21,984 bases of DNA, from positions 1 through 21,984 of the IMG/VR virus record IMGVR_UViG_3300025417_000099. One strand, given 5' to 3'. Position numbers and translations under genes: made by a program. This document shows positions 70 through 19,483 of the stretch, in pieces (the stretch's first letter is position 1; each line of letters starts with the position of its first letter). This stretch comes from a virus. The notes below the pieces were generated by a model, which saw only the letters and a program-made list of their open reading frames with translations, did no database searches and had not been told where the DNA came from.

Positions 70-270
70 TTAGACATCATCCTCTGTCAGAAAGCCAGAG
101 CCATAAGCTTCGTCAGACATTTTTTGTTTAATCTTTTCAAGGTTCATTGCGCGGTCAATGACTTTGAGTTTGATTTCCAGATCAACAGACGCGTCCGACA
201 TCACGGCCTTCAGGAGGTCGCTGACGGCCTTTTCGAGGTCAGGGTTGATGCCGCTCTGCTTCTTGCTCAC
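70..270 (-). CDS. small hypothetical phage protein (66 aa), GTG start
   Basis: A 66-residue protein of unknown function. It starts at GTG (270-268), which overlaps the TGA stop of the upstream 46-residue gene (GTGA), so translation is probably coupled. The N-terminus is basic (SKKQSG). The rest is predicted helical with alternating charged and hydrophobic residues ([14 protein letters not shown], then [20 protein letters not shown]), and the C-terminus is acidic (GFLTEDDV). There is no membrane segment or Cys motif. A small helical protein that works as an oligomer or partner-binding protein would fit, but that is only inference. It lies at the downstream end of the structural operon, where lysis or accessory genes are common. 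The good frame, coupling and lack of gaps support it being real. Confidence 0.7.
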
Positions 271-407
271 CGCTTGCCCTTCCGCTTGGCCTTGCGCGCT
301 GACGACAGGGCGATGGCGACCGCCTGCTTCTGAGGACGGCCTTCGCGCACCAGCTTGCTGATGTTCTTGGAGACCGTCTTCTTGCCGCTACCTTTCTTGA
401 TAGGCAT
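267..407 (-). CDS. 46-aa highly basic small phage protein
   Basis: Begins ATG at 407-405, one base after the stop of the 480-residue gene; AGAC/GGAGAC lies just upstream as an SD. The N-terminus is [20 protein letters not shown], followed by a helix with [17 protein letters not shown] and a Lys/Arg tail ending KRKGKR. The pattern KKG-S-KK-(T/V)[20 protein letters not shown] is one I recognise from short proteins in many tailed phages, usually left as hypothetical. No enzymatic motif is present. The strong positive charge suggests nucleic acid binding, which is inference. The C-terminal [10 protein letters not shown] resembles the 10-residue micropeptides at 17.5-17.6 kb. Its stop overlaps the GTG of the next gene. 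Confidence 0.8.
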
Positions 408-16889: not shown

Positions 16890-17387
16890 TTACATCGGTG
16901 ACGGTGCACCGCCGGGTGGCATACCCGGTGGCATTGCGGGAGGCCCGCCCGCCGGGGCACCGCCCGGCGCAGCAGCGGGAGGCTGCGGACCCATAAGGCC
17001 AAGGTTCGGGGGCCCACCGGCAATCGCGCGCGACACCGGGGTTCCACCGCCCGCTTGGGGCAAATTCTGAAGGAGCTGAAGGATTTCGGCGCTCTGAAGC
17101 TCGTTGGTCTTCTGCTTCTTGGGGCCGAGCACGGAAGAGAGCTTGGAGAGGGCGGCCATCAGGCTCTGACCCTCAGGGGTCTCAGAACCAATGGCGGGGA
17201 GGGACTGTTCGATCAGATCAAGAGCCATGCTCACATTGATCATCGCTGCTTCCCGCTGGCCCTGTTTCGGTTCGGGCGTGGACATCGGGGAAGGCATGGG
17301 GGGAGGCGTCATAGCCGGACCAGCCCCAGGAGGCGGTGCGCCGTCCTGCTGGCTTTGCATCAGAGCCATAATGTCCTGGTCTGCCAT
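16890..17387 (-). CDS. Pro/Gly-rich hypothetical protein (165 aa)
   Basis: It starts MADQDIMALMQSQQDGAPPP, with a disordered Pro-rich tail to about residue 40. Residues 45-105 are a helical core (REAAMINVSMALDLIEQSLP, ETPEGQSLMAALSKLSSVLG and ELQSAEILQLLQNLP). The last 45 residues are Pro/Gly/Ala-rich (PGGAPAGGPPAMPPGMPPGG). Proteins with this design lie between portal and scaffold genes in many uncharacterised podophages; their function is not known to me. SD GAGGT lies seven bases upstream of ATG 17387. The upstream 120 bases contain two stem-loops and no clear sigma70 promoter. Confidence 0.75.
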   Translation of the reverse strand: MADQDIMALMQSQQDGAPPPGAGPAMTPPPMPSPMSTPEPKQGQREAAMINVSMALDLIEQSLPAIGSETPEGQSLMAALSKLSSVLGPKKQKTNELQSAEILQLLQNLPQAGGGTPVSRAIAGGPPNLGLMGPQPPAAAPGGAPAGGPPAMPPGMPPGGAPSPM

Positions 17388-17440
17388 GTGGTTTACCTCA
17401 ATTTACACATGATTGCCGTACAATGCGGGCAAATGTCAAG

Positions 17441-17470
17441 GGAGGGGTATGTTTTAAGTTCCGCCCCTCC
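17441..17470 (-). other. GC-rich stem-loop upstream of the Pro-rich gene
   Basis: Inverted repeat GGAGGGG (17441-17447) / CCCCTCC (17464-17470), a 7-bp stem with a 16-base loop. On the coding (minus) strand the 5' arm GGAGGGG looks like an SD, but it has no start codon after it within normal distance. No T-run follows on the minus strand, so it is not a standard Rho-independent terminator. It may be an RNA-stability or attenuation element. Confidence 0.55.
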
Positions 17471-17491
17471 TCGGAACGACTCATGGTCGCG

Positions 17492-17510
17492 ATACGGGAC
17501 TAACCCGTAT
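17492..17510 (-). other. perfect stem-loop just after the third micropeptide
   Basis: ATACGGG (17492-17498) pairs with CCCGTAT (17504-17510), a perfect 7-bp stem with a 5-base loop. On the minus strand it begins 5 bases after the TAA of the 10-residue MRRKGRKARR gene. There is no U-run after it, so it does not look like an intrinsic terminator. Position and perfection suggest a role in mRNA stability, termination or stop-codon behaviour. Confidence 0.6.
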
Positions 17511-17515
17511 GTTAG

Positions 17516-17548
17516 TTAGCGACGAGCCTTACGACCCTTGCGACGCAT
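17516..17548 (-). CDS. micropeptide MRRKGRKARR (10 aa)
   Basis: A 10-codon frame, ATG 17548-17546 to TAA 17516-17518, encoding MRRKGRKARR with seven Arg/Lys. GGAGG (17553-17557 on the minus strand) lies five bases upstream of the ATG, a near-ideal SD. An in-frame ATG four codons earlier (17560) would place the SD inside the peptide, so the nearer start is preferred. All Arg codons are CGT/CGC, the preferred type. A peptide this basic should bind nucleic acid or acidic protein surfaces. It lies in a run of three such genes between portal and capsid genes. A chance ORF of this size is common, so the case rests on the SD and on the repeated pattern. Confidence 0.6.
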   Translation of the reverse strand: MRRKGRKARR

Positions 17549-17594
17549 GTGCGCCTCCATAGCTGGAAGTTGCGGGACGGGTGAAAAGCGCCAA

Positions 17595-17627
17595 TTAGCG
17601 CTTGTGCTTACGAGCCTTGCGAGCCAT
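17595..17627 (-). CDS. micropeptide MARKARKHKR (10 aa)
   Basis: A 10-codon frame, ATG 17627-17625 to TAA 17595-17597, encoding MARKARKHKR: six Arg/Lys plus one His. AGGAGG (minus strand, 17634-17639) is a full-strength SD six bases upstream of the ATG. It has the same length, similar makeup and the same start signal quality as the next frame at 17516, and the two peptides share the RKxRKxxR style. It also resembles the end of the 46-residue basic protein at 267-407 ([10 protein letters not shown]). A nucleic-acid- or capsid-binding peptide is inferred. It is too short for normal gene callers and homology searches. Confidence 0.6.
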   Translation of the reverse strand: MARKARKHKR

Positions 17628-17668
17628 TGATGGCCTCCTGCTGCTAGTGTGATCGTCCCCAAAACTCT

Positions 17669-17713
17669 TTACTTCCGGCGGCTACGACGAGACCGCTTTA
17701 CGGACTTGTACAT
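17669..17713 (-). CDS. micropeptide MYKSVKRSRRSRRK (14 aa)
   Basis: A 14-codon frame, ATG 17713-17711 to TAA 17669-17671, encoding MYKSVKRSRRSRRK with eight Arg/Lys. GAGGAG (minus strand, 17720-17725) lies six bases upstream. Its ATG overlaps the stop of the 33-codon frame (TAATG), the same coupling used by several certain genes of this phage (for example at 4542, 5297 and 6362). The SRRSRR pattern resembles protamine-like or small DNA-condensing peptides, but that is only similarity of composition. The coupling and SD make it the best-supported of the micropeptides. Confidence 0.65.
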   Translation of the reverse strand: MYKSVKRSRRSRRK

Positions 17714-17814
17714 TACGCTCTCCTCATAGTTCTATCGGGGCGCGTCATGGGACGGCCCGCTAGATTTCTAACATTAGAGACGCGGTATTGTATAGATGCG
17801 GGCTTTTCAGCCAT
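17713..17814 (-). CDS. small Arg-rich protein (33 aa) at the head of the micropeptide run
   Basis: A 33-codon frame from ATG 17814. It starts MAEKPASIQYRVSNVRNLAG and ends MTRPDRTMRRA. Eight Arg/Lys against two acidic residues make it basic. The end of the frame contains the SD of the next micropeptide, and the stop overlaps its ATG, so translation is likely coupled. The SD for its own start is poor; the nearest G-rich run (CGGGGC) is the 3' arm of a stem-loop ending 12 bases upstream. That may mean controlled translation or a wrong start. A shorter start at M23 is possible. No known family. Confidence 0.5.
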   Translation of the reverse strand: MAEKPASIQYRVSNVRNLAGRPMTRPDRTMRRA

Positions 17815-17821
17815 AGAGACA

Positions 17822-17846
17822 TCACGCCCCGTAGCGCGGGGCTGAT
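17822..17846 (-). other. stem-loop between portal and micropeptide genes
   Basis: GCCCCG (17826-17831) pairs with CGGGGC (17837-17842), a perfect 6-bp stem with the 5-base loop TAGCG. The stem can be extended by ATCA/TGAT with one bulged base. It is located between the portal stop (17870) and the ATG at 17814. On the minus strand the stem is followed by GTGATGTCTCT, not a U-run. It is a possible RNA-processing or partial terminator site setting different levels of the portal and the downstream genes. Confidence 0.6.
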
Positions 17847-17869
17847 CACCAACTCTGACTTGGCCTTGA

Positions 17870-19483
17870 TTAGCCATTGGCCTTTTTCCCTTGCGGAGGC
17901 GGAGCGGGCGGCTGAAGGGCCTTCATCTGTTCGGCCTTTTTCAGCTTTTCCTTGAGCATCTGCTTCATTGGTGGATCGAGCATATCGATCAATGACTCTT
18001 TGTCAATAGCCTGCGCCTTAAACAGGTTAAAGGCCAAAGACCTCAGGTCTTCCATGAAGATTGGGCTATTCGAGTGGGCGTCCACCTTCACTACGAAATT
18101 CCTAGTAAACTGCTCGGCTATGAACTTCTGCCCTTCAATGTCCTTGAAGTGCGTGGGGTCATACGCCTGCATCAGTTTCAGGTAGAGGGTCGCCAGCTTC
18201 TCCAGCGAGTTCTCAACGATAAGAGCACGCTTCTTTGCGCGAGACGAACCAAGGCGGGCAAGCTGCGATGCGTGGCCCGCAGAACGAACGCCTTGTTCAC
18301 CGCGACCAGACAAAACTTCCGAAATGCCAGACGCCTCGGCAAACATTGCGTCGATCTCACGAAGCTGCTCGTAAAGGCTCTCAGGAAGATCAGGCGCAAG
18401 GCGCTCGACCTTGGTGTTGGGCATATCGGTCGCCAGCAAACCGCCAGCGCGGTTCAGGGCAAAGTTCTTCTCGTCCAGAATGCCGGTAAAGCCCGTAAGG
18501 GCGGTCGGCGGGTTCACTTGTTTGGAAAGAAGATCGAGGATTTCGTTCATGCGCTTGTTGCGCATTTCCTGAAGGAACATCAGGCGCGAAACTTCCGACT
18601 GACCCCAATAGTAATCGGGCATCGGGTTCGGCGCGACTTGGATGAACGGGCTTTCCCCTTTGAGGAACATCTTCTCGTTTTCGCGGTCGTAAATGATTAC
18701 GTCTGGGTCGGCGCGCGTGACGACTTGATAGTCTTGCGTCTCGTCGTTCCAGACGTACAACTCCGTCATCTCGATGGTGTCTTCTTCGACTTCCGGCTTC
18801 ATCCGGTTCTGGCCGTAAAGATTGAGATTGACGTTGCCGTACATGGTCGGATCGACCTGGCTCAGGATGATGCGGTCAACGCCGTTCGGCGTGTAGGACT
18901 CAACATGCTGAGAGGTCGTGACGCGCTGCACAATGCTTTCGCGCTTGGGGTGCGCGTAAAGCCGAGCATACAGGTCGGATTTAGTTATGTAGTAGGTCTG
19001 GACGAAAGCTTCCTGCCGATCGAGGTAGGGAATGTCTTCTCTCAGGACGCCGAAGTTGTTTGGATCAATAAAGTAAGGATGGATAGCTCCGTTGGAGACA
19101 ACGAGCTTGATAAAACCGGAATTGTAGACCATCGCCCAAGTGAGCGCGGTGTTAAACACCTGATCAGCGTTTGAATTGTTCCACTCATCGTTCAGGGCCT
19201 GTTCCAGACGCGGGATGTAGCGGTATTGATCTTCGTGGGCCGACGCGCCAAGGTTGATCGAGAAGCGCGTGGTGTCCGCCGAGTACAAGAAGCTCACGAG
19301 CTGGTCGATGTGAGGAAAAATCTTGTTGTACTGCGCGGGGCTCTCCTCGGGCGCGGACCCGAAGAGATAGTAGGACTTTAGAGCGGAATAATCCGCCCGG
19401 CGGCTCTCGCGAGACACCAGGCACTTGCGGATCAGGTCTTGGTAGAAGAACTCCCGCTCTTCAGCTTCCTTTGGAATGATCAT
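17870..19483 (-). CDS. portal protein (537 aa)
   Basis: A 537-residue protein two genes after the large terminase with portal-type sequence. It forms the dodecameric ring at one capsid vertex through which DNA is packaged and ejected. Residues 51-74 (QYNKIFPHIDQLVSFLYSAD, then TTRF) are a helical N-terminal piece. Residues about 130-165 (SNGAIHPYFIDPNNFGVLRE, then DIPYLDRQEAFV) match the 'dP..fgv.re....ldr..a' region of podophage portals. Residues 345-400 have the long helical part with the 'G..FALNRAGGLL' segment, and further on EVLSGRGEQGVRSAGHASQL resembles the 'G....g.RsA....q' turn. The C-terminus is helical and ends Pro/Lys-rich. Its ATG overlaps the previous stop by four bases (ATGA). 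Confidence 0.88.
   Translation of the reverse strand: MIIPKEAEEREFFYQDLIRKCLVSRESRRADYSALKSYYLFGSAPEESPAQYNKIFPHIDQLVSFLYSADTTRFSINLGASAHEDQYRYIPRLEQALNDEWNNSNADQVFNTALTWAMVYNSGFIKLVVSNGAIHPYFIDPNNFGVLREDIPYLDRQEAFVQTYYITKSDLYARLYAHPKRESIVQRVTTSQHVESYTPNGVDRIILSQVDPTMYGNVNLNLYGQNRMKPEVEEDTIEMTELYVWNDETQDYQVVTRADPDVIIYDRENEKMFLKGESPFIQVAPNPMPDYYWGQSEVSRLMFLQEMRNKRMNEILDLLSKQVNPPTALTGFTGILDEKNFALNRAGGLLATDMPNTKVERLAPDLPESLYEQLREIDAMFAEASGISEVLSGRGEQGVRSAGHASQLARLGSSRAKKRALIVENSLEKLATLYLKLMQAYDPTHFKDIEGQKFIAEQFTRNFVVKVDAHSNSPIFMEDLRSLAFNLFKAQAIDKESLIDMLDPPMKQMLKEKLKKAEQMKALQPPAPPPQGKKANG

Follow-up and report, generated by a model that had tools for sequence, protein, structure and literature searches.

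The window analysed here, the whole 21,984-b virus record from IMG/VR, carries between its portal gene and the next head-region gene three micro-ORFs that are almost certainly real, conserved protein-coding genes. They represent two classes of very small, Lys/Arg-rich peptides. As judged from codon-level comparison of relatives, genes of only 9-15 codons have been shown to be conserved under protein-level purifying selection across an extensive clade of uncultured phages whose portals are of SU10 type. Our best overall explanation, to which we assign a probability of about 0.45, is that both classes are translated, bind nucleic acid in trans and are put to use in the head or in packaging.

The gap is bounded upstream by the portal gene (17870..19483, minus strand), whose product matches Pfam SU10_portal, and downstream by a gene for a 165-aa protein (16890..17387, minus strand). 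The latter, the 3' anchor of the gap, is termed scaffold-like by position only, and its product has no family match. The adaptor of this phage group matches Pfam SU10_adaptor. The spacing of 482 b between the annotated genes, given by an earlier sequence-only reading of this DNA, is correct (17388-17869), and the three frames, SDs and stops agree with its description, all on the minus strand. No known RNA or tRNA was found in the gap. Micro-ORF 1 (17669..17713, minus strand) encodes the 14-aa class 1 peptide MYKSVKRSRRSRRK and starts within a TAATG overlap with a 54-codon gene; its SD, AGGAG (17720..17724, minus strand), is invariant in the close clade. Micro-ORF 2 (17595..17627, minus strand) encodes MARKARKHKR and micro-ORF 3 (17516..17548, minus strand) its paralogue MRRKGRKARR, both class 2 peptides of 10 aa that are conserved in relatives. 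Micro-ORF 2 is preceded by the SD AGGAGG (17634..17639, minus strand) and micro-ORF 3 by GGAGG (17554..17558, minus strand), which is conserved in close relatives. In the order of the micro-ORFs the SDs sit 6, 6 and 5 bases before ATG, as had been noted.

The class 1 consensus is about M-Y-[KR]-x-x-K-R-G-R-K-T-R-R, and Tyr2 was present in 78 of the 78 class 1 matches examined among the matches listed, using a pattern that left positions 2-6 free. Counterparts of micro-ORF 1 in relatives include MYKKMKRGRKTRR and MYRAMRKARKTRR. Class 2 follows about M-[AR]-R-K-x-R-K-G-R-K-x-R-K and is duplicated in some clades. When distinct micropeptides are pooled, R makes up 31% and K 26% of residues (57% Arg+Lys), acidic residues are nearly absent, [RK][RK]-small repeats are seen, and the last two residues are nearly always R/K, occasionally C. 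Cys recurs in the micropeptides of relatives only at the last three positions, mostly the penultimate one, and usually replaces Arg; a role as a disulfide-paired residue was dropped because the partner peptide has no Cys in most of the examples inspected. Between micro-ORFs 1 and 2 (about 17668-17640, minus strand), many members share a short conserved TTGGGGACGTTYACTCTAAC-like motif, instead of which other clades have GGTATGGCTGC...AAGTGGCCGC.

Relatives were gathered from portal searches of IMG/VR, two pattern scans, two GenBank phages and two MAG contigs. The gap could be read in 321 of the loci, of which 258 are distinct, and their portals are 65-100% identical. Counting ORFs of 9-18 codons that are preceded by an SD and have at least 45% K/R, we found one to three such Lys/Arg-rich ORFs, in the same places, in 248 of the 258 distinct portal-to-scaffold gaps: two in 189, three in 51 and one in 8. 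The earlier description of three in a row is true of the window's own clade, but most relatives have two. For a set of 126 gaps we counted 287 such ORFs in the gap, whereas the 1.86 Mb of strand sequence outside it contained only 2. Seven long relative genomes (33-38 kb) have no recognisable members apart from the in-gap peptides; the few other basic ORFs in them are isolated and unlike the gap peptides. All 26 stretches returned by a first unanchored pattern scan of IMG/VR are at the portal-gap locus. Among the matches listed from a second scan, in which residues 2-6 were left free, 75 of the 78 examined lie directly downstream of a portal gene, and the remaining 3 are on contig ends without a portal but with the downstream genes present. 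As for dispersal to other phage groups, neither of these whole-collection scans gave another locus among the matches listed. Two MAG bins provide a weak hint of a betaproteobacterial host. In one relative (L121) the micro-ORF MARKGRKSRKMCK begins with ATA instead of ATG and is possibly a dying copy or one with a non-standard start.

That the frames arose by chance, or from a DNA or RNA motif that can by coincidence be translated into basic peptides, is extremely improbable. Arg and Lys codons and GGAGG-like purine runs may co-arise in such sequence, but among 5,000 dinucleotide shuffles of the gap, scored for ORFs with ATG, an SD of at least 5, 9-16 aa and at least 50% K/R, 4,999 had no such ORF, one had a single ORF and none had three. 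These shuffles and the in-gap versus outside counts bear out the earlier argument that three basic, SD-led ORFs in one gap are unlikely by chance. The excess of synonymous change, the frame-preserving indels and the conserved SD spacing speak against chance as well. Among pairs of micro-ORFs that differ by one base, 77 of 88 differences are synonymous versus 27% expected, although the pairs are not fully independent and the p-value is descriptive only; the synonymous shifts include those of Ser between AGC and TCN and of Arg between CGN and AGA. The pN/pS ratio was 0.31 and 0.08 in two micro-ORF 1 groups and 0.36 and 0.07 in micro-ORF 3 groups, and was weaker (0.70-0.84) in pooled micro-ORF 2 groups, probably due to the mixing of paralogous variants. 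In 20 close relatives, micro-ORF 3 differs at third positions only, all of the changes being synonymous; the preceding spacer, by contrast, is freely variable and has indels. Frame and charge are also kept in a relative with one 3-nt in-frame deletion in micro-ORF 1 (L024), and in another, L022, where ORF1 and ORF3 are naturally fused in frame (MYKSMMRMKGRKARR).

Of 539 ORFs in relatives with 4-8 matched SD bases, the SD having been a selection criterion, 529 start with ATG, and TAA is the stop codon of 255 of 290 distinct ORFs. CGT/CGC predominate among the Arg codons and AAG among the Lys codons, which is like the capsid gene and unlike the window's average gene, and the SDs rank among the strongest in the window. 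The alignment of relatives for frameshifts, lost SDs and codon-level conservation, which the sequence-only reading had proposed as its check, was run and left the micro-ORFs standing; its view that these are real genes missed by annotation is upheld by the conservation of frames and SDs with synonymous change. Indeed, no gene is annotated for the micro-ORF frames in the deposited relatives MW202825 and MW202753. Hypothetical ORFs have been called on the opposite strand in the gap of both (MW202753.1 4740-5038 and MW202825.1 25683-25943).

At least nine phages that make up one clade (L141, L186-L195 and L204) have a short, clean gap without micro-ORFs or the pseudoknot described below. No micropeptides were found elsewhere in two long genomes of this clade. 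Because they are absent both from the gap and from elsewhere in these two genomes, the micropeptides are dispensable in this clade, which forms a natural comparison group. A 15-codon basic ORF, MDKKAQGRPARKMRR, considered as a relocated micropeptide in this clade, was rejected because it is only the C-terminal portion, read from an internal Met, of a 57-codon gene, and no basis was found for functional replacement by that gene. The window itself has a 46-codon basic ORF (267-407, minus strand) whose product is related to one of 57 aa found in other members of the phage group.

Upstream of micro-ORF 1 lies a conserved 54-codon gene (17713..17877, minus strand; MANQGQVRVGDQPRATGRDVSMAEKP...MRRA) with the motif DQPR...QYRV and a basic C-terminus, whose ATG shares bases with the stop codon of the portal gene (overlap ATGGCTAA). 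The sequence-only reading had placed a 33-codon leader frame here, coupled to the first micro-ORF. The TAATG overlap with micro-ORF 1 stands, but the 33-codon frame is the C-terminal part of the 54-codon ORF, read from an internal Met, and the DQPR motif, which is upstream of the start of the shorter frame, is kept in nearly all relatives. Counterparts of the 54-codon gene have 47-60 codons and overlap or abut the portal stop in most relatives; the gene gave no match to Pfam or PHROGs. In one relative (L014), an insertion of ~860 b between the portal gene and micro-ORF 1 takes the place of the 54-codon gene. The protein encoded by the insertion has nearly 290 aa and an HESLH (HExxH-like) motif, and the micro-ORFs are kept downstream.

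The gap also contains predicted RNA structures. A hairpin (ATACGGG-ttagt-CCCGTAT; 17492..17510, minus strand) lies a few bases past the stop of micro-ORF 3 and shows a compensatory T-A to A-T change in relatives; stop codons of micro-ORFs are often 0-4 nt before the start of a hairpin. Farther downstream (17441..17477, minus strand), covariation points to an H-type pseudoknot with stem S1 GTTCCG/CGGAAC, loop L1 A, stem S2 GGAGGGG/CCCCTCC and the A-rich loop L3 TTAAAACATA. In a search for this pseudoknot, 167 of 246 tails exceeded the threshold, compared with only 2 of 180 shuffles. The matches comprise 65 different stem combinations of one topology, and some of them are alternative registers. 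When 4-bp first stems are allowed, most of the remaining tails also fit. Stem sequences are wholly replaced together with matching partners (GTTCCG/GGAGGGG, TTTCCC/GAAGGGG, ATCATT/GGCGGTT and CGACAT/TGGCAGT), and the A-rich third loop persists despite the change of stems. The covariance models of Rfam 15 gave no relevant match. The predicted pseudoknot is thus a new, strongly covarying RNA motif that is kept in most relatives. The sequence-only reading had mentioned neither this motif nor the hairpins or the promoter-like element described next.

Next to the pseudoknot and upstream of the 165-aa gene is a -35-like TTGACA (17434..17439, minus strand), which in many relatives is followed 16-18 nt on by a -10-like hexamer; at least 4 of the 6 positions of TATAAT are matched in 38 of 68 distinct segments, compared with 1 of 68 in a shifted control. 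The -10 is weak in the window and its own clade, and TTGACA is absent from some clades. In relatives, TTGACA often occurs together with a dyad (GTTTGTAA...TTACAAAC) that spans the spacer, and with TACAAA as the -10-like sequence. In many relatives this element probably serves the head genes as a regulated promoter. In that case, the micro-ORFs would be located in the 3' end of the terminase-portal transcript, and not in the leader of the capsid transcript.

Several known systems resemble parts of this locus. Bacterial genes of 7-16 codons exist, such as the attenuator leaders trpL and hisL and MccA of microcin C7. Attenuator leaders are cis-acting and rich in codons for the regulated amino acid, and MccA is matured by enzymes; neither is an Arg/Lys-rich tandem family. 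The N peptides of lambda and P22 share Arg/Lys-rich stretches of 10-20 residues and nearby RNA hairpins with this locus, but they are domains of larger proteins acting on a short boxB hairpin, whereas here the whole product is 9-15 aa and the structure is a pseudoknot. The pseudoknot of T4 gene 32 mRNA is likewise of H-type, with a short L1 and an A-rich L3, upstream of a phage gene; the one described here is 3' of the micropeptide genes and often precedes the promoter-like element. With SU10/phiEco32-type phages (Kuravirus) the group has in common the portal and adaptor families and a like order of portal, small gene, scaffold and capsid. In phiEco32, a distant cultured relative, the portal gene is followed at once by a gene of 79-aa size and the scaffold gene, with no micro-ORF gap.

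The closest functional parallel is with J of the microviruses phiX174 and alpha3 and VP8 of the gokushoviruses, which are also very small and Arg/Lys-rich and whose genes likewise lie among structural genes. J/VP8 has an important part in packaging and binds the DNA of the genome (PMC11281519); VP8 of SpV4 has 38 aa and a hydrophobic, capsid-buried C-terminus ending in Phe38 (PMC11281519). The micropeptides are shorter (9-15 aa), end in RR, RK or KR without a hydrophobic anchor, and are tandem paralogues in tailed dsDNA phages. The comparison drawn by the sequence-only reading is therefore borne out in charge and in position among the head genes, but not in the C-terminal hydrophobic capsid anchor (PMC11281519). 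As far as their sequences tell, the micropeptides are not members of the J/VP8 family, because this hydrophobic, capsid-buried C-terminus is absent; they may nevertheless work like the J/VP8 basic arm.

With respect to function, capsid-like codons, strong SDs and mostly TAA stops suggest that the micropeptides are highly expressed. The content of 57% Arg+Lys, the scarcity of acidic residues and the [RK][RK]-small repeats point to nucleic-acid binding, and we consider trans-acting binding of this kind rather probable. A role in the head or in packaging is proposed more tentatively; it is the likeliest use because of the fixed place between the portal and the head/capsid genes. Under our preferred explanation, each micropeptide would be made in quantity as a finished, unfolded and strongly cationic product and would bind nucleic acid in trans, in a pattern that fits an extended, non-specific binder. 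The micropeptides would bind DNA during packaging, or DNA or RNA in the prohead, much as the J/VP8 basic arm does. The lack of a capsid-binding anchor in the micropeptides counts against this explanation, as do the clade that has no micropeptides, the higher pN/pS of the pooled micro-ORF 2 groups and the gapless phiEco32.

The arginine-rich motif of lambda N binds boxB and T4 gp32 binds the pseudoknot of its own mRNA, and the micropeptides might similarly be arginine-rich-motif regulators: they would bind the hairpins or pseudoknot of the transcript that encodes them and govern the expression, stability or transcription of head genes. We regard this as unlikely. In its favour, the covarying pseudoknot and post-stop hairpins share the gap with the micro-ORFs, and the length and composition of the peptides resemble arginine-rich RNA-binding motifs. 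Among 239 portals, the pseudoknot and at least two micro-ORFs go together (both in 209, neither in 21 and mixed in 9). But when corrected for relatedness, this co-occurrence comes down to ~3 informative independent pairs, in one direction, and is not significant (p about 0.25), so that co-loss of peptides and pseudoknot is no more than suggested by this under-powered comparison. Moreover, the stems change wholesale while the peptides are near constant, so that recognition would have to be of shape, and the pseudoknot's own role may lie in RNA stability or at the 3' end of the upstream message, with no part for the peptides. A control cassette, in which the tandem arginine-rich peptides of 10-14 residues, all of them whole gene products, would bind the adjoining conserved pseudoknot and hairpins and gate the head genes or mark RNA for assembly or packaging, appears doubtful.

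Action in cis, through basic nascent chains that slow or stall ribosomes, alter access to the hairpins and thus control the head genes, would agree with micro-ORFs that precede structured RNA, with hairpins often 0-4 nt past their stops. We nonetheless think it quite improbable, as the codons are preferred ones instead of rare AGA/AGG, the stops are mostly TAA, there are two to three tandem copies with a natural fusion tolerated, and in many relatives a promoter-like element separates the micro-ORFs from the next gene; a terminator-like site with a T run was looked for in the gap and not found. Much the same low probability is given to cationic peptides that inhibit a host target, e.g., ribosomes, nucleoid or membrane. 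Host-directed phage genes usually turn over, which is in contrast to the high conservation seen here across portals 65-100% identical. The micropeptides have one fixed place in the head block, with no further member in the genomes scanned, and no hydrophobic or amphipathic face. On the other side, their composition is like that of cationic antimicrobial peptides, and small phage proteins often target the host (PMC11323111).

Small phage proteins are an already known kind, and the Fremin et al. 2022 catalogue, which reportedly covers small phage genes, stood outside our comparison; the micropeptide sequences were not found in the literature searched. To our knowledge, the tandem ten-residue format with an adjoining covarying pseudoknot is new. 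Across hundreds of sequences, genes of 9-15 codons can thus be conserved in a phage lineage and be invisible to gene callers, and structural operons merit a search for SD-led, charge-biased micro-ORFs, for which this locus provides a precise test case. If the micropeptides bind the adjoining RNA, they would constitute with it an exceptionally small gene-encoded peptide-RNA regulatory pair. If instead they enter the virion, tailed dsDNA phages would have gene-encoded, protamine-like or J-like basic peptides.
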